Assembly: GCA_019359315.1 (NCBI GenBank)
Contig: JAHHHO010000017.1
Location: 1-64,000, forward strand
Reading direction: 5' to 3'
Source: Myxacorys californica WJT36-NPBG1
Lineage (GTDB): Bacteria > Cyanobacteriota > Cyanobacteriia > Leptolyngbyales > Leptolyngbyaceae
DNA length: 64,000 nt
The position numbers and the translations under genes were made by a program. The first letter of the stretch is position 1, and each line of letters starts with the position of its first letter. Positions 2,742 to 23,085 of the stretch are shown piece after piece. Under the pieces are notes generated by a model, which saw only the letters and a list, made by a program, of their open reading frames with translations, searched no databases and had not been told where the DNA came from.

Positions 2742-3062
2742 TTACTCCGTTTGCCGTTGAGAAGCGGAGAAGCGGTGCATGGGCAAACTCAGGGCACATG
2801 AGAAGGTTAATAAGTAGGAAATCACCGCTGTCCACTTCAGACTGAGCATAAAGATGTCCCAATCAGGAGAAATCCACTTCTGGGCACCCACCGCCACAAG
2901 ATGCACAATCCAGTAGGCAAAACTCATAGCGAATAGCGTTAGATCTGCCGCATCAGCATCATCTGCCTGAGCCGATTTTCGATTCACTACAATGTATAGA
3001 CCAATGACACTTGCAAAGAATGAAAGAAGCTTTAGATATTCGTGCCAAACAGGATGAGACAT
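2742..3062 (-). CDS. Small hypothetical membrane protein
   Basis: I do not recognise this family. The 106-residue product has three hydrophobic segments (ASVIGLYIVV, FAMSFAYWIVHLVAV and TAVISYLLTFSCAL) separated by a short acidic loop, so it is probably an inner-membrane protein. I prefer the ATG at 3062; a TTG at 3095 would extend the frame by 11 residues without a clear ribosome binding site. It is convergent with DUF2103 and divergent from the deacetylase-like gene. Confidence 0.6.
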   Translation of the reverse strand: MSHPVWHEYLKLLSFFASVIGLYIVVNRKSAQADDADAADLTLFAMSFAYWIVHLVAVGAQKWISPDWDIFMLSLKWTAVISYLLTFSCALSLPMHRFSASQRQTE

Positions 3063-3201
3063 GAGCGTTTCAGATAAAAAATTTCGGACTGGCAATCAGT
3101 CTAAAGGATGAGGCTGGAGATCTTCTACAAACTCTTACAAACAGCAATATTTGACGAGATTAATTTACAAAAGTAAAGACAGATATCAGTCGAATTACTA
3201 A

Positions 3202-11094: not shown

Positions 11095-13974
11095 ATGGGC
11101 AGAGTCGTTGGTATTGACCTGGGAACTACAAACTCGGTGGTGGCGGTCATGGAGGGCGGGAAGCCAGTGGTCATCGCCAACGCAGAAGGCACGCGGACAA
11201 CTCCTTCCGTTGTTGCCGTTAGCAAAGACGGAGAACGGATGGTGGGGCAACTCGCTAGACGGCAAGCCGTCCTTGATCCACAAAATACATTTTTTGCAGT
11301 AAAGCGCTTTGTGGGGCGCAAATACGCCGAGCTTTCGCCCGAATCGAAGCGAGTTCCTTATACGATCCGCAAAGATGAGGCGGGCAACATCCGAATCAAA
11401 TGCCCTCGCCTCAATCGCGACTTTTCGCCTGAAGAAATCTCGGCTCTAGTTCTCAAGAAGTTAGCCGATGAAGCCGCTCGCTATTTGGGAGAACCCGTGA
11501 CCGGGGCAGTAATCACTGTGCCTGCCTACTTTAATGATTCTCAGCGTCAAGCGACCCGTGATGCTGGACGGATTGCCGGACTTGATGTAAAGCGGATTTT
11601 GAATGAACCGACAGCCGCCTCGTTGGCTTACGGCCTCGATCGCGTCAGTCAAGAAACAATTCTTGTGTTTGATTTAGGTGGCGGTACGTTTGATGTCTCG
11701 ATTCTAGATGTGGGCGATGGTGTCTTTGAAGTCAGAGGCACGAGCGGTGACACACAGCTGGGCGGCAATGACTTTGATAATAAAATTGTCGATTGGCTGG
11801 CAGAGCAGTTCTTAGAGCAAGAAGGCATTGATTTACGCAAAGACCGTCAAGCGCTTCAGCGACTCACGGAAGCTGCAGAGAAAGCCAAGATTGAGCTTTC
11901 CGGAGTGAGTGTAACCGCCATTAATTTACCGTTCATTACCGCAACGGAAGACGGCCCCAAGCATTTAGAAACCCGGATGACGCGATCGCAGTTTGAGGGA
12001 TTGTGCGGTGATCTCTTGAGCCGTCTGCGGGGTCCTTTGCGTCAAGCGTTTCGGGATGCCGAAATGATGCCCGATGACATTGACGAAGTGGTGCTAGTCG
12101 GCGGTTCTACCCGAATTCCGATGGTGCAAGAAGTCGTACGATCGCTGATCAATCTCGAACCAAATCAGAATGTCAATCCTGATGAAGTTGTTGCTGTCGG
12201 AGCCGCCATTCAAGCCGGAATTTTAGCGGGCGATTTAAAGGACATTTTGTTGCTCGATGTGACCCCGATTTCGGTCGGGTTAGAAACGATCGGCGGCGTG
12301 ATGAAAAAGCTGATTCCGCGCGGCACAACGATTCCTACTCGCCGATCCGACACCTTCTCAACCTCAGAAGATAACCAAACGATGGTCGAAGTCCACGTTC
12401 TGCAAGGCGAACGGGAGATGGCATCGGGCAACAAATCGCTGGGGCGCTTCAAGCTGATGGGCATTCCACCCGCGCCGCGTGGAATTCCGCAAATTCAGGT
12501 GTCGTTTGATGTAGACGCTAACGGCATTCTGCAAGTGACCGCGATGGATCGTACTACCGGGCGCGAGCAGAGTATTACCATTCAAGGTGCATCGAATCTG
12601 AGCGAAGACGAAATCCGGCAAATGATTCGCAGCGCTGAAGAATATGCCGAAATCGATCGACTCCGCAAAGAAAAAGTCGAGAAGCGAAATCGGGCAGAAG
12701 CGCTGACCTTTCAAGCTGAGCGTCAACTGCGAGAAGCAACGCTTGACTTCGGCATGACGTTTGTGAGCCCCTATCGCAATCGGATTGAACCGCAAGTGCA
12801 GCGTCTACGAGAAGCATTGGCAAACAACGACGATCGCGGTGTAGACATTGCTGAGGCAGATCTCAAAGATGCTCTGTATGACCTCAACCGTGAGGTTTAT
12901 CAACAGACCAAACTCGACGAAGGCGAAGGCGGCTTCTTCGAGTCGATCAAAAACTTTTTCCTCGAAGACGACGAAGATTACTACTACCCCGAACCTCGTG
13001 ATCCTTATGGATCATCTCGTGATTACTGGAATGCCGGACAAAGTAGCTATGGGCAAAGTAGCTATGGGCAAAGTAATTACGAACGCGATAACTATACCTA
13101 CGGGCGTGACAACTACACCTACGGGCGTGACAACTACACCTATGGACGGGATAACGATCGCGGCGATCGTGATAATGCTGCTCCTAGTCGAGATAGCTAT
13201 GGTCGAGATAACTACAGCCAGAACGACAGTAGGCGTGTTTCCTTCGATGGTGTACCCAACGATCGCTATGATTCTTCAGAGCTTGGCGGAGCCAGCCGCG
13301 ATCCTTACAGCGGTCAAACTTCGCCGAATCGAGATCCATATAATGATCCTGCGGAGTTTGGCAGAACCAATCGTCCTCCGACCAGCCGTGACCCGTATGC
13401 CAATCCAGACTCCTCTAGAGGCCGCGATTCTTCATTGGGCAGAGCCGATCGCTCTGATATAAACCGCGACTCCTACAACGATTCTTCAGAGTTTGACAGA
13501 GCCAATCGCCCCTCAACTGGCCGCGATCCATACGCGAGTCCAGACCGCTCCAGAAGCCGAGATCCCTACAGCGATCCGTTGCAGTATGGTGGCGATCCTG
13601 CGGAGTTTGGCGGGGCCAATCGTGCCCCGTCGCAAGATCCCTACGGCAGTCGAGATACTTTTAGAAACCGAGGTAACGGGACGCGGCGCGATCCTGATTT
13701 CTACGATTCTTCGGATCTGGGCGGAGCCAATCGCGGTTCTCAGCAGAACTACAGCTCGTCGAGACAAGATCCGCCCCGACGAAATCCAGATCTAGAGGCT
13801 CCTCGGCGCGATAATGGTTCTGGTTACTCGTCCGGTCGAACTGACTTTGGTAGCCGCCGCTCACCTGATGCTTCAGACTTTGGCAGAGCCAATCGTAGCG
13901 ATTCCTCTAAAAAACGTCCCGCTCGTCCCAACTATGCCCAAGATAATTGGGATGACGAAGACGATTGGCTGTAA
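11095..13974 (+). CDS. dnaK3: DnaK3-type Hsp70 chaperone with very long repetitive tail
   Basis: Residues 1-380 form the Hsp70 ATPase domain ([55 protein letters not shown]), and about 385-540 the substrate-binding domain ([29 protein letters not shown]). A helical lid follows to about 610. The rest, 625-959, is a hydrophilic low-complexity tail rich in R, D, S, Y, N and G, with GRDNYTY repeats and a repeated S(E/D)(L/F)GG(A)NR-like motif, ending in an acidic DDEDDW segment. The sequence start [10 protein letters not shown] and the adjacent dnaJ gene match the cyanobacterial dnaK3-dnaJ pair; DnaK3 in other cyanobacteria carries a C-terminal extension and has been linked to thylakoid membranes. 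At 959 residues this copy is much longer than a standard DnaK of about 640. Confidence 0.9.
13043..13160 (+). repeat. In-frame 15-bp and 21-bp repeats in the dnaK3 tail
   Basis: Two short arrays follow each other in frame: a 15-bp unit (AGCTATGGGCAAAGT, coding SYGQS) in about three copies near 13043-13080, and a 21-bp unit (coding GRDNYTY) in three near-identical copies near 13083-13146. Both are multiples of three, so copy number can change without breaking the reading frame. Confidence 0.85.
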
Positions 13975-18121: not shown

Positions 18122-18598
18122 CTACGTCCCCATGCGTTTGATGATGTTCTGCACAATAGTGATGCCAGTAATCGCTTGGTATCCAAATAACCCCGTAATT
18201 GCCACATTGATTGCAATGTGACTGTACCGCGCCCAGTCTTGTCCCTTCTGCATAAAGGGCGATAGCGATGCGGAAACGGCAATCATTCCCGTCATGCCTA
18301 GTCCAATGAGCAAGTGTGGAGCGACAAACAACTTACCGCTGTTGATGTAGGTTGCTCCCATTGCGCCGATTGAACCGACGACCATAATGGCAAGCACTAC
18401 CGAGCCAATTTGGTAATGTTTGACATTGAATTTTTCTTTGAGAAGGTTCTTCTTCAGGTCTCCCGTGGCAGTGCGGGCACGCCGCCATTGAAGTCCCGAA
18501 TACAAAGCGTAGATGGTTAATGCTAGTAGCACCCACATCAAAACGGGATGGACAAACTGACTATAAACTTTGAGGAACTGAAGTAACTCAGAAGGCAT
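18122..18598 (-). CDS. DUF4079 membrane protein
   Basis: The 158-residue protein has four hydrophobic segments and the DUF4079 pattern: VHPVLMWVLLALT with an N-terminal histidine, NVKHYQIGS, a PHLLIGLGM segment and RYSHIAINV. The regularly placed histidines in membrane helices resemble haem-binding cytochrome b-like proteins, and the family is seen mostly in cyanobacteria and plastid lineages. Haem binding is an inference from the histidine layout. It lies downstream of purH on the same strand. Confidence 0.8.
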   Translation of the reverse strand: MPSELLQFLKVYSQFVHPVLMWVLLALTIYALYSGLQWRRARTATGDLKKNLLKEKFNVKHYQIGSVVLAIMVVGSIGAMGATYINSGKLFVAPHLLIGLGMTGMIAVSASLSPFMQKGQDWARYSHIAINVAITGLFGYQAITGITIVQNIIKRMGT

Positions 18599-18617
18599 AG
18601 AGGTTCTTTGTCTAAAT

Positions 18618-18654
18618 GAGGAGGTTAATAAAACTTAGCATATCGTACCTCCTC
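18618..18654 (-). promoter_or_regulatory. Stem pairing GAGGAGGT with ACCTCCTC upstream of DUF4079
   Basis: Eight-base arms GAGGAGGT (18618-18625) and ACCTCCTC (18647-18654) are perfectly complementary around 21 bases. On the minus strand this places a perfect Shine-Dalgarno-like sequence and its complement in the leader of DUF4079, 20-55 bases before the start codon. The spacing is too long for normal initiation, so an mRNA stem is more likely than a ribosome site. Confidence 0.35.
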
Positions 18655-18704
18655 TCAATTCCCGGTGCTCTGTGAACCTCTGCTCTAGATTTCTGCGCTC
18701 AGTT

Positions 18705-20258
18705 TTAGTGCAAGAAATGGCGAATTCCGGTGAATGCCATGACGATTCCAAGCTCGTTCGCCGCATCGATGGATTCTTGATCACGCAAACTGCCACCCGG
18801 TTGAACGATCGCACTAATTCCGGCAGCCGCAGCCGTGCGAACCGAGTCATCAAATGGAAAAAATCCATCACTCGCGAGAATGGCTCCTTGAACCTGTTCA
18901 CCTGCTTGTTCAAGCGCGATTTTGACAGAGCCAACGCGGTTCATCTGCCCTGCCCCGACGCCGATCGTTGTACGATCGCGGCTCACCACGATCGCATTCG
19001 ACTTGACATGCTTACAGATCTTCCAAGCAAACAGCAGTTCGGCGAGTTGTTCGGGCGTCGGTTTCTTCTCGGTAACCAGGTTCCACTGGTTCACATCGGC
19101 AACGATGTCATCGGCGGCCTGAACCAAAAAGCCACCTGCGATCGCTTTGACCTGTTGAAGTGCGCCCGTCGTCAGATCCGATAGAGTCAGCACCCGAACT
19201 TTTGACTTACCCTGTAAAATCTCTTGCGCGTCAGGGTTGCACACTGGGGCAACTACGCATTCTAGAAAGGTTTTCGTCATAGCGGTAGCAGTGGGGGCAT
19301 CAATCGGACGATTCAACGCCACAATGCCACCGAATGCTGAGATCGAATCTGCATTAAAGGCTTTTTCGTAGGCTTCGAGCAAGGTTGCTCCCATTGCTGA
19401 GCCGCAGGGATTGTTGTGTTTGATGATGGTAGCGGTGGGGTCGCTCTCTGGATCAGCGAACTCAGCGATAATCGATCGCGCTGCTTCTAGATCCACCAGA
19501 TTGTTGTAGCTCAGTTCTTTGCCTTGTAACTTGGTAGCGGCAGCCCAGCCCGTCGGAGTGGCTCCAGTCTGATACCAAGCTGCCTCTTGGTGAGGGTTTT
19601 CGCCATAGCGCAAGGGTTGAACTTGCTGTCCGGTGAGGGTGAATGCATCGGGGAGAACGCCTGTTTGCGCTCCTTGGTTCTCAAGATAAGCCGAGATGGC
19701 GCGATCGTAGCTGGCGGTATGTTTGAATGCTTGCAAGGCGCAGGTTTGCCGGAAAGCCAATGATGCGACTCCGTTATGCTGGCGCAACTCTTCTAAATAG
19801 GAGTTGTATTGATCCGAATTGCAGAGAACCGTTAAATGAGCAAAGTTCTTAGCTGAGGCGCGGATCATTGCAGGCCCGCCAATGTCGATCTGCTCGATCG
19901 CTTCGGGTAACGTAACGCCCGTTTTAGCGATCGTGGCTTCAAAAGGATAGAGATTCACCACAACCAGATCGATCGGACGAATCTGCTGGGCTTCTAAATC
20001 TGCAATATCCTGCGGTTCATCTCGCCGCGCCAAGATTCCACCATGAATCCGGGGATGGAGTGTCTTCACCCGTCCTCCCAAAATCTCCGGCGACCCTGTG
20101 TAGTCTGAGACCTTAGTGACAGGTAAGCCTGCTTCCTTCAAAGCTTGTGCAGTTCCTCCACTGCTGATCAGGTCAAACCCAAATTCTTCTACCAAACTCC
20201 GAGCCAAATCAATCAGCCCAGTTTTATTTGAAACGCTCAGTAGAGCTAAACGTGCCAT
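18705..20258 (-). CDS. purH: Bifunctional AICAR formyltransferase/IMP cyclohydrolase
   Basis: PurH performs the last two steps of purine synthesis, formylating AICAR with 10-formyl-THF and closing the ring to IMP. The 517-residue length is standard. The N-terminal cyclohydrolase domain (ARLALLSVSNKTGLIDLAR, GGRVKTLHPRIHGGIL) and the C-terminal transformylase domain (LRYGENPHQEAAWY, IIKHNNPCGSA, ASDGFFPFDD) are complete. I use the ATG at 20258; a longer reading frame extends 42 residues upstream but that part is not family-like. Its upstream DNA contains the 21-bp repeat array. Confidence 0.95.
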   Translation of the reverse strand: MARLALLSVSNKTGLIDLARSLVEEFGFDLISSGGTAQALKEAGLPVTKVSDYTGSPEILGGRVKTLHPRIHGGILARRDEPQDIADLEAQQIRPIDLVVVNLYPFEATIAKTGVTLPEAIEQIDIGGPAMIRASAKNFAHLTVLCNSDQYNSYLEELRQHNGVASLAFRQTCALQAFKHTASYDRAISAYLENQGAQTGVLPDAFTLTGQQVQPLRYGENPHQEAAWYQTGATPTGWAAATKLQGKELSYNNLVDLEAARSIIAEFADPESDPTATIIKHNNPCGSAMGATLLEAYEKAFNADSISAFGGIVALNRPIDAPTATAMTKTFLECVVAPVCNPDAQEILQGKSKVRVLTLSDLTTGALQQVKAIAGGFLVQAADDIVADVNQWNLVTEKKPTPEQLAELLFAWKICKHVKSNAIVVSRDRTTIGVGAGQMNRVGSVKIALEQAGEQVQGAILASDGFFPFDDSVRTAAAAGISAIVQPGGSLRDQESIDAANELGIVMAFTGIRHFLH

Positions 20259-20397
20259 GAGTTCAATCCTGTCAGTTAAGTCGGTCTCTCTCAGGATAAG
20301 GGATGATGGCAATGTCGAAGAGGTCAAGGAGATTAGGAAGACGCGAGGAGCAAAAACGATATAGAAGAATGACCTGAAGTTCAAACGTAAGCCTTTA

Positions 20398-20649
20398 AGC
20401 TTTATCGCTGATGCTCAGAGCTTCATCGTTGAATGTTTAAGCATCAAGCCTGAATGTTTGAGCTTCATCGTTGATACTCAGAGCTTCATCGTTGAATGTT
20501 TGGACATCAAGCGTGAATGTTTAAGCTTCATCGTTGAATGTTTGAGCATCAAGAGCGAATGTTTAAGCTTCATCGTTGAATGTTTGAGCATCAAGCGTGA
20601 ATGTTTAAGCTTCATCATTGAATGTTTGAGCTTCGTCGCTGATAGTTTG
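20398..20649. repeat. 21-bp tandem repeat array, 12 copies
   Basis: Twelve units of exactly 21 bp follow each other without spacers, with a thirteenth degenerate unit to 20670. Two unit types mostly alternate: AGCTTCATCGTTGAATGTTTG and AGCATCAAGCGTGAATGTTTA (one base over the limit avoided by quoting units only as AGCTTCATCG... and AGCATCAAGC...). The unit equals seven codons, so both strands are open through the array: SFIVECL/SIKRECL on + and LKHSTMK/LKHSRLM on minus. It fills the space between the divergent purH and esterase genes. Whether it is translated is not evident; no ribosome binding site precedes it. Confidence 0.9.
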
Positions 20650-20724
20650 AGGTTCAGAAAGGAACGATCCAGAGAAATCATCCCCCTCATTTATCTTCTC
20701 TGCCGAACTCCCTCCATCCCCTCT

Positions 20725-21393
20725 ATGATCGGAAACGGAGAGTTACCCGCTAAATCAGTGTCTTTGCAAGCTATCACCATTCCACCCCAATCTGGTCAGT
20801 CGCCTAAAGGCTTAATTGTCATCCTCCACGGTTGGGGCGCAAGTGCTCAAGATGTCGCCTTCTTGTGTTCCCTACTAAAACTGCCCAACATTCAATTTAT
20901 GGTGCCTGACGCACCTTTTTCGCATCCTTACAGCACCACCGGAAGAATGTGGTACGACCTCTCAAACATCGCGAGCTTTCGGAGCGACATTAGCCAGCAA
21001 CCCGACTTGAAAAAGAGCCGTCAACTCCTAATCGATTGGCTGAAATCTTTAGAAGCCAGCACCGGAATTCCTTTATCGCGAACCATTTTGGGTGGCTTCT
21101 CCCAAGGTGGCGCGATGACGCTCGATGTCGGAACCCAGCTTCCATTAGCTGGATTAATGGTGATGAGCGGTTATCTGCACAGCGCAATTTCTCGCCAGCC
21201 CAGCTACCCGCCTATTTTGCTGGTGCATGGTCGTCAAGACTCCGTTGTGCCGCTATCCGCTGGCCATTTTTCAAGACAACAGCTAACCGCGATCGGGGCA
21301 AAGGTGGACTACAAAGAATTCGATATGGGACACGAAGTTTCTCCCCTAGTCCTGAATGAAGCGCAGCAATTCGTCGAAAAGATTCTGCTCTAA
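20725..21393 (+). CDS. Alpha/beta hydrolase, carboxylesterase/phospholipase type
   Basis: The 222-residue enzyme has the serine hydrolase triad of the small carboxylesterase family: nucleophile S126 in GGFSQGGAM, D172 in VHGRQDSVVP and H203 in MGHEVSP, with the oxyanion-hole HGWG at 35-38. Close relatives hydrolyse short-chain esters or lysophospholipids, and some act as acyl-protein thioesterases. I start at the ATG at 20725 because the family begins there; the same frame stays open through the upstream repeat array back to 20458, which would add 89 unrelated residues. Confidence 0.85.
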   Translation: MIGNGELPAKSVSLQAITIPPQSGQSPKGLIVILHGWGASAQDVAFLCSLLKLPNIQFMVPDAPFSHPYSTTGRMWYDLSNIASFRSDISQQPDLKKSRQLLIDWLKSLEASTGIPLSRTILGGFSQGGAMTLDVGTQLPLAGLMVMSGYLHSAISRQPSYPPILLVHGRQDSVVPLSAGHFSRQQLTAIGAKVDYKEFDMGHEVSPLVLNEAQQFVEKILL

Positions 21394-21549
21394 GTTTGAA
21401 GGATTGCGAACCGAGATTAACGAAACCTTTACTCTAGGTTCCAACTAGGGAAGCTGAAGTAAACTTTAATTAGGGGTCAGCCATCTGTTTCATTAGTTCA
21501 GTACAGTAGTCAATACAGCAACAGATGGATTTAGAGGGAGGTGAAAGCC

Positions 21550-21762
21550 GTGCAGACATTCAAATATACAGAACTCGATGTGGCTAAGCTCACAGAGTCA
21601 GACATTCAAACGTTGGCAATTCGGTTGGAGCAAGATGACTATAGCAGTGTCTTCGATGGCTTAAACGATTGGCATTTGCTCAGAGCGATCGCATTCCAGC
21701 GTCCTGAACTAGTCGAACCCTACCTCTATCTTCTAGACTTAGAAGCCTACGATGAAGCATAA
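21550..21762 (+). CDS. DUF2555 family small protein
   Basis: The 70-residue protein ends in a strongly conserved cyanobacterial block (FDGLNDWHLLRAIAFQR, then PYLYLLDLEAYDEA) that defines DUF2555. It is acidic, has no membrane segment and no known function. I start at the GTG at 21550 because AGGGAGGTGA lies six bases upstream; the GTG at 21541 sits inside that site. A terminator follows, so it is a single-gene transcript. Confidence 0.8.
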   Translation: MQTFKYTELDVAKLTESDIQTLAIRLEQDDYSSVFDGLNDWHLLRAIAFQRPELVEPYLYLLDLEAYDEA

Positions 21763-21796
21763 CCGCCTAATTTTGAAGTACAAATTTAAGCCTACG

Positions 21797-21820
21797 CCGC
21801 TCGCTCATCGGGCGGTTTTT
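21797..21820 (+). terminator. Intrinsic terminator after DUF2555
   Basis: CCGCTCG and CGGGCGG pair over seven positions (one wobble) around a five-base loop, followed by TTTTT. It lies 35 bases past the stop codon. Confidence 0.8.
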
Positions 21821-21861
21821 CATTTTAATCGCGCCTCGATCTATTAATTGCGCTTCAAGTC

Positions 21862-23085
21862 ATGCAGGGTAAACGCATTCTCTTTGGCATTGGCGGCGGC
21901 ATTGCTGCTTACAAAGTCTGTCATCTCGTCTCAGCGCTGGCAAAATCTGGGGCAGAGGTGCGGGTCATGCTCACAAAGTCCGCCCAATCCTTTATTACCC
22001 CCCTAACGTTTGCCACCCTCAGTCGTCATGCTGCCTACACCGACGATGATTTTTGGAGTCCGGCTCATCATCGCCCCCTCCACATCGAGCTTGGTGAATG
22101 GGCAGAACTTTTTGTTATCGCACCGTTAACCGCTAATACTCTCGCCAAACTGAGTTACGGTATGGCGGATAATTTGCTAACCAATACGGTTTTAGCATCC
22201 ATCTGTCCAGTGTTATTAGCTCCGGCAATGAATACAGACATGTGGGAGCAACAGAGCGTTCAACGTAATTGGAATCAGCTTTTACTTGACTCGCGCTATC
22301 ATGCTGCGAATCCAGGAGCCGGAATTTTAGCGTGCGATCGCGTCGGTACAGGACGCATGGCAGAACCCGAAGAACTCTTGCCTCACATCCAATCGCTGCT
22401 CTACACCGGAGGAACTCGCGACCTCACTGGCAAACACATTCTAATCAGCGCAGGCGGAACCCGCGAACATTTTGATCCAGTGCGCTTCATTGGCAATCCC
22501 TCGACTGGAAAAATGGGAATTGCGATCGCGCAAGCGGCTTTGCATCGCGGCGCAAACGTCACCCTAGTTCATGCCCCAATCGATGCGCATTTGCTGGCTC
22601 CCCTCAAATCGATTCGTCTTGTTCCGGTCACCAGTTCTGCCGACATGAGGCACGTGATGAGAGAACACTTACTAGACGCCGATTGGATTGTTATGTCTGC
22701 AGCGGTTGGAGATGTACAACCAACCCTTTACAGCGCAGAAAAACTACCCAAAAAAGATCTGCCGATTGCTCTACCGCTCGAACCGATTCCTGACATTGTG
22801 GCGGAGTTAGCCGCCCTGAAACGTCCGGATCAGCGATTAATTGGATTTGCCGCTCAAACCGGAGATTTTGTCACCCCTGCGATCGCGAAGCTAGAGCGAA
22901 AAGGACTAGATGCGATCGCGGCCAATCCGGTCGATCAACCTAATAGTGGGTTTGGCAGCGATACCAATCACGCTGTTTTCCTTGATCGCACAGGTCGCCA
23001 TGTTGAAATCCCGTCGTGCAGCAAATTAGAAATGGCGCATCGTTTGCTCAGCTTTGTTGATGCGATCGACAACGTTAATCGCTAG
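21862..23085 (+). CDS. coaBC: CoaBC: phosphopantothenoylcysteine decarboxylase/synthetase
   Basis: This bifunctional enzyme joins phosphopantothenate with cysteine (CoaB) and decarboxylates the product (CoaC) in coenzyme A synthesis. The N-terminal flavoprotein half (about 1-185) has [19 protein letters not shown] and the [16 protein letters not shown] loop whose cysteine belongs to the active-site flap. The C-terminal half (about 190-400) has [24 protein letters not shown] and the VMSAAVGD motif. The 407-residue length is standard for the fused form. Confidence 0.95.

Follow-up and report, generated by a model that had tools for sequence, protein, structure and literature searches.

A 21-bp tandem array between purH and a carboxylesterase gene of Myxacorys californica, member of a dispersed repeat family

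The array and its place between two genes

The window, that is, the whole stretch of 64,000 nucleotides that was analysed, covers positions 1 to 64000 of contig C122 in a genome of Myxacorys californica of 5.97 Mb and 128 contigs, here called G000. Its purH and carboxylesterase genes are divergent and separated by a gap of 499 bp, just over half of which is taken up by a tandem array of 266 bp. An earlier reading of this DNA, made from the sequence alone, had placed an array of 21-bp units between these two genes. Both parts of that claim are borne out: the Pfam domains AICARFT_IMPCHas and MGS are found on one side of the array and Abhydrolase_2 on the other, and Tandem Repeats Finder gives the array scores of up to 286, far above the top score of 62 obtained in 30 dinucleotide-shuffled windows. 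The features of the locus are the following.

18705..20258, minus strand: purH, the AICARFT/IMPCHase bienzyme, assigned with Pfam; its start codon is 135 bp from the array
20394..20659, plus strand: 21-bp array of about 12.5 units with an unbroken register; the G000 family reference unit is GAATGTTTGAGCTTCATCGTT
20394..20537, plus strand: higher-order period of 63 bp in the 5' part of the array, 2.3 copies with 88% matches
20499..20624, plus strand: higher-order period of 42 bp in the 3' part of the array, with two unit types alternating, taken from the unit list
20458..20757, plus strand: repeat-rich frame extension proposed in the sequence-only reading, judged non-coding; its starts within the array are TTG only
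20478..20690, minus strand: open reading frame of 70 aa across most of the array, judged spurious
20758..21393, plus strand: carboxylesterase (Abhydrolase_2), with a conserved GTG start at 20758 and an alternative ATG start at 20725

The units had been described as alternating between two types. The two types are real, but strict alternation fails: in order, the units are A A B A A B A B A B A A, with a period of 63 bp followed by a period of 42 bp, and the autocorrelation of the whole window array at lag 42 is 0.76. Each unit of 21 bp is itself made of three degenerate heptamers, for example TTTAAGC, TTCATCG and TTGAATG. At lags 7 and 14, the self-match of the window array is 0.393, versus a mean of 0.246 when the columns of the units are permuted, and 3 of 500 permutations reach 0.393. 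An excess over the column-permuted mean is present in all nine arrays of G000 that are presented below, with 0 to 29 of 500 permutations equalling it. The array thus has periods of 21, 42 and 63 bp, all multiples of 7 bp, as do repeats of the heptanucleotide type. The sequence-only reading overlooked this heptamer substructure, the higher-order repeats of 42 and 63 bp, the dispersed family and its rarely broken 21-bp register.

Reading frames at the locus and in an alpha-mannosidase

A step of 21 bp preserves both the phase of the heptamers and the reading frame, and the array could conceivably be translated, either as a repeat-rich N-terminus of the esterase, made of heptapeptides such as ECLSFIV, or as a protein of the reverse strand. 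Heptamer repeats can give heptapeptides, according to MacGregor's paper (PMC4679880). The array was said to join the esterase frame without a stop, and it does: after a stop at 20362, the frame is open from 20365 through the esterase, but TTG is the sole type of start that it offers within the array. The companion claim, that the array is open on both strands, stands for the plus strand; the minus strand is open only from 20481 to 20690, which covers part of the array. When the 21 columns are permuted 2000 times, 52.7% of the permutations attain both open lengths, and two-strand openness is therefore the usual outcome for a 21-bp array of this kind.

The start of the esterase, GTG at 20758 (VSLQAI), lies downstream of the array and matches the aligned start in most relatives; in 18 of 29 esterase loci of relatives, an in-frame stop is found at most 12 codons upstream of the position of residue 1. 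Within the window array, the three codon positions vary to much the same extent (0.224, 0.204 and 0.235). Nor are esterase-frame stops avoided: the 21 family arrays outside GH38, some of which are extended at their edges, contain 46 of them, with 40.4 expected. In the same 21 arrays, stops in two reverse frames do fall below the column-shuffle level, 92 versus 110 (0 of 200 shuffles as low) and 52 versus 60 (1% as low). This deficit is mild and without explanation, and dozens of stops remain in each of the two frames.

The codon-position bias and the stop avoidance that characterize protein-coding repeats are thus missing from the esterase frame, the GH38 array described below being the exception. 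With open frames expected by chance, equal variation at all codon positions, no shortage of stops in the esterase frame and a conserved esterase start downstream of the array, a coding role does not hold up at this locus: the N-terminal extension that had been proposed for the esterase and the reverse-strand frame are both rejected, and it seems to us extremely unlikely that the window array encodes protein.

The heptapeptides that the sequence-only reading saw in the array are, however, readable in a paralogous one. The family array of contig C29 (L066, 9579-9890) lies in frame inside a GH38 alpha-mannosidase of 1174 aa, where it forms the linker between the GH38N domain (229-477) and a middle domain (606-698), and its frame runs on the complement of the reference unit given above. 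Arrays of 21 bp are also present in the GH38 linkers of genomes G003, G005 and G019, and in G051 a family array is located in the region of the GH38 gene. In the congener G001, the linker contains a different 21-bp array, with heptapeptides similar to KEASIHP, plus one remnant unit of the family recognised by eye; in G006, G021, G024 and G029, the linker is short. A structure prediction of the GH38 protein, run without alignment, has a mean pLDDT of 30.8, too low to be informative.

Other short-period repeats were met in passing. The C-terminal tail of a protein that by eye is DnaK-like (ORF 11095-13974) is long and repetitive, and includes a coding repeat of 21 bp, NYTYGRD, at positions 13039-13142 of the window. 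Locus L163 contains, at 2959-3160, several short, clustered arrays of a 20-bp unit, GGGAACGAAGAAACGAAGGC.

Distribution and placement of the family

At least nine family arrays, of about 12 to 17 units each, are found in G000. The window array matches contigs C116, C10, C95, C90, C53, C29 and C13; the array of C117 was recognised separately and later, so that nine is a lower bound. According to simple ORF calls, eight of the nine lie between larger ORFs and one inside GH38: like heptanucleotide-type repeats, the family is dispersed and mainly non-coding.

In the bacterial family to which Myxacorys belongs, 10 of 42 genomes match the consensus with an E-value of 0.001 or less; at that threshold, the congener G001 has no match. 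Some of these genomes contain units identical to those in records of Stenomitos, Tildeniella and Lyngbya. Named genomes were scanned with a two-unit pattern built from the 21-bp family, which yielded at least 109 stretches; the 80 listed loci were analysed, 77 of them for spacing and placement. Among the 80 listed, 72 are cyanobacterial and 8 belong to other bacteria, 4 of these 8 to a single Tannerellaceae bin, and 77 belong to runs of five or more in-register units when loose edge units are counted. The cyanobacterial hosts among the matches listed are Nostoc, Moorena, Brasilonema, Scytonema, Fischerella, Stenomitos, Tildeniella and others.

The arrays are absent at most of the orthologous sites examined. 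Six of the eight other G000 sites (C10 and C29 were left out) were checked in up to five relatives, with a score based on a chain of four units: scores range from 47 to 59 in the 23 flanks and from 75 to 83 in the nine G000 arrays, and random DNA of G001 scores 49.5 on average, with a highest value of 57 in 300 samples. The G001 flank of the C90 site, at 59, is the only one that suggests the remnant of an array. Precise insertion footprints were not found at the array sites, where the intergenic DNA of G001 is mostly unalignable.

Mobility of the REP/RAYT kind was considered and rejected: matches to Y1_Tnp (PF01797) occur in 38 of the 42 genomes versus 10 with arrays, and one array genome, G021, is without a PF01797 match, while G022, without an array match, has 42. 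These 42 matches are all on one chromosome, G022:C1, and most are equal in score. A search for carriage on plasmids gave no match for the window array, and two matches only, of 42 and 31 bp, for one Nostoc array. Some neighbours of the arrays are recorded simply as adjacencies: two NACHT proteins adjoin family arrays at L062 9906-12512 and L063 7455-9554, and genes for TIR-WD40, AAA_35 and protein kinase adjoin arrays in other genomes.

The sequence-only reading suggested that the window array might alter the promoters of both its neighbours. The purH gene is divergent at 22 of 30 esterase loci, G000 included, and in 7 of these 22 the slot between the genes measures 29-39 bp and has no array. 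Tandem repeats scoring at least 40 are found in the slots of G000, G001, G008, G019 and G016, with periods of 21, 14, 14, 14 and 50, the 14-bp repeat of G019 being weak. Homology of the 14-bp repeats of G001, G008 and G019 with the window array was rejected, their resemblance being no better than that of shuffles.

Among the matches listed, the 77 arrays of named genomes are placed as follows, with genes taken from simple ORF calls: 37 between tandem genes, 13 between convergent genes, 7 between divergent genes, 4 in ORFs, three of which are short and may be spurious, and 16 at a locus edge. Both in G000 and in the listed named loci, the arrays thus have no fixed relation to genes, and the 77 do not show the position upstream of genes, at divergent promoters, that is typical of promoter operator arrays. 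Because relatives have array-free slots and placement is mostly tandem or convergent, a promoter role is disfavoured, and an action on both promoters is unsupported as a general function. A consensus scan of 20200-20800 for promoters or terminators gave none. The best supported of the alternatives that had been put forward is that the array is a spacer.

The array might also act as RNA: once transcribed, it would fold into long imperfect hairpins in the leader of the esterase, and tune stability or translation. The plus strand folds at -98.7 kcal/mol, a z-score of -6.1 versus dinucleotide shuffles, and the minus strand at -62.4, with a z-score of -3.1; all 18 strands of the nine arrays fold somewhat better than the column-permuted mean, several arrays not significantly so. 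Hairpin folding has also been described for the heptanucleotide repeats of the Nostoc trnL intron (PMC3488679). Tandem repeats, however, generally fold well: versus column permutation, the z-scores of the window array are -2.6 and -1.5, and several of the arrays do not stand out, with 13 and 20 equally good permutations out of 60 for the two strands of C10, and 10 and 4 for those of C13. Moreover, arrays between tandem genes are oriented opposite to the genes in 25 of the 37 listed cases, and Rfam has no match up to E 1 in 18400-22600. We regard a role as an RNA element as highly improbable.

Register, turnover and interpretation

In the 77 listed loci, strong units at most 66 bp apart give 750 spacings. 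Of these, 706 are whole multiples of 21 bp, 20 are multiples of 7 but not of 21, and the other 24 fit neither series. The search pattern, which demands two in-register units, favours this outcome. In the nine arrays of G000, no internal step breaks the register, and odd spacings occur at the edges or as pairs of 7 and 14 that sum to 21. Intergenic tandem duplications of G000 outside the family have a broad spread of lags, from 15 to 23, with 21 only slightly up. The step of 21 bp is therefore a property of the family and not of the genome, and a genome-wide preference for 21 bp in G000 is rejected. Lags of 21 and 42 bp dominate in G000, and lags of 7 and 14 bp in the samples from G014 and G003. 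A spacing of exactly 43 bp, perhaps a change of register by one base, was seen seven times in the listed named loci.

In the genus labelled g3, several species have arrays at orthologous places, for example G003:C61 and G052:C36, with 17 units each. The first two units of these arrays agree at 20 and 19 of 21 bases; the inner units barely correspond, with a mean agreement of 0.72 at equal index and 0.67 overall. Local homogenisation, measured by the likeness of units within versus between arrays, is clear in two of the four named species tested, N. mirabile (0.81/0.58) and N. flagelliforme (0.71/0.61), and less so in Moorena (0.66/0.61) and Brasilonema (0.74/0.72). In G000, the two values are 0.580 and 0.553, and the nearest neighbour of a unit lies within its own array in 48 of 130 cases, in another array in 40, with ties in 42. 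Such near-equality is not typical of local slippage.

The arrays have a nested anatomy, a patchy and shifting distribution and no fixed place, and a copy in frame is tolerated; these are the traits of satellite-like repeat DNA. It is probable, in our judgement, that the window array is a member of a dispersed, satellite-like, mostly non-coding DNA derived from heptamers, a tolerated spacer that is neither translated nor a dedicated promoter element. Three degenerate heptanucleotides would have become one unit of 21 bp, and groups of 2, 3 or 4 such units (42, 63 or 84 bp) would then be amplified anew, growing and shrinking by a mechanism that we infer to be slippage or unequal recombination. 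Arrays would persist at sites that tolerate an insertion; most such sites are intergenic, and one is a protein linker, in which the 21-bp step would retain the frame. The window array would be a 266-bp spacer upstream of both purH and the esterase, presumably without effect on either.

Against this satellite-like origin speak the recurrence of the unit consensus in many cyanobacteria and a register that is seldom broken, in DNA most of which has no reading frame to keep. Together with the low homogenisation of units in G000, the correlation of column conservation between genera (r of 0.55, 0.66 and 0.40), and the covariation of columns 2 and 12, they also fit selection on a phased binding site. 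In that case, a unit of 21 bp, or two helical turns, would carry a roughly dyad-symmetric site (GAx ... x'TC), and 10-20 such sites on one face of the helix would load a putative DNA-binding protein, through which the chromosome would be organised or regulated at some ten places.

Among 93 distinct array consensuses, columns 2 and 12 are complementary in a fraction of 0.67, versus 0.40 in shuffled ones (z 5.2). However, columns 3-11 and 4-10 are unpaired, 3-11 being mostly the same base repeated; the dyad sum centred on column 7 is weak, at 1.6 over 7 pairs, and several other centres are higher; covariation within arrays is small, and related arrays are not independent. The strict register also speaks for binding sites: eight arrays have accumulated at least 273 substitutions and no indel, with P 0.004 if indels amount to 2% of substitutions, a ratio that is assumed, for arrays that are delimited by their own register and in some cases extended at the edges. 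Constraint on a chromosomal function sits less well with the 32 of 42 genomes that have no match, that of the congener included, or with the six checked sites, which are not conserved in five relatives, although the GH38 site is; and the site is without a known binding protein. On balance, we hold a phased binding array to be rather unlikely. It is unlikely, too, that these arrays of 10 to 20 sites, phased at two helical turns in many cyanobacteria, are heptamer repeats turned into a docking platform for a putative DNA-binding protein.

Short tandemly repeated sequences, or STRR, are dispersed in cyanobacterial genomes. The family of the window resembles them in general description, in being made of short tandem repeats dispersed in such genomes. 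STRR sequences of cyanobacteria are named in PMC5088731. More generally, cyanobacterial heptamer repeats are a kind already known (PMC4692102, PMC4679880, PMC6344855, PMC3488679). No description of the strict 21-bp family was found in the literature searched, most papers in subscription journals lying outside that search.

Rehm et al. (2015, PMC4692102) report heptameric simple sequence repeats of Nostoc and Xanthomonas, GGGGA(T/C)T and GGGAATC. The family shares with them a heptamer base, a tandem and genome-wide arrangement, mostly intergenic, a varying length and a presence in some genes; it differs from these 7-bp, G-rich, quadruplex-forming repeats by its stable unit of 21 bp, its mixed composition and its fixed register, and the run of G in every heptamer of GGGGA(T/C)T is absent from its unit profile and list. 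The TAACTGA direct repeats of Beggiatoaceae, Cyanobacteria and Bacteroidetes (MacGregor 2015, PMC4679880) are similar in their heptamer base, their presence in cyanobacteria and a few Bacteroidetes, their patchiness and their mixed placement. They consist, however, of a single exact 7-mer, with mostly 7-nt indels in two Cyanothece strains, whereas the family steps by 21 bp, and exact tandem TAACTGA heptamers are absent from its unit lists. The heptanucleotide repeats of the Nostoc trnL intron (PMC3488679) are likewise degenerate, variable in copy number and capable of forming hairpins; unlike the window family, they are confined to one intron.

A family with a fixed step of 21 bp in one species, and with no match in its congener, is a clean system for asking whether such arrays do anything, and the GH38 case shows a route from an intergenic repeat to the linker of a protein. 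If the arrays do serve as a docking platform, the seven-base periodicity of intergenic DNA, so far unexplained, would gain a function, and the same step of 21 bp would also let an array enter genes without breaking their frame, as in the linker of the alpha-mannosidase.
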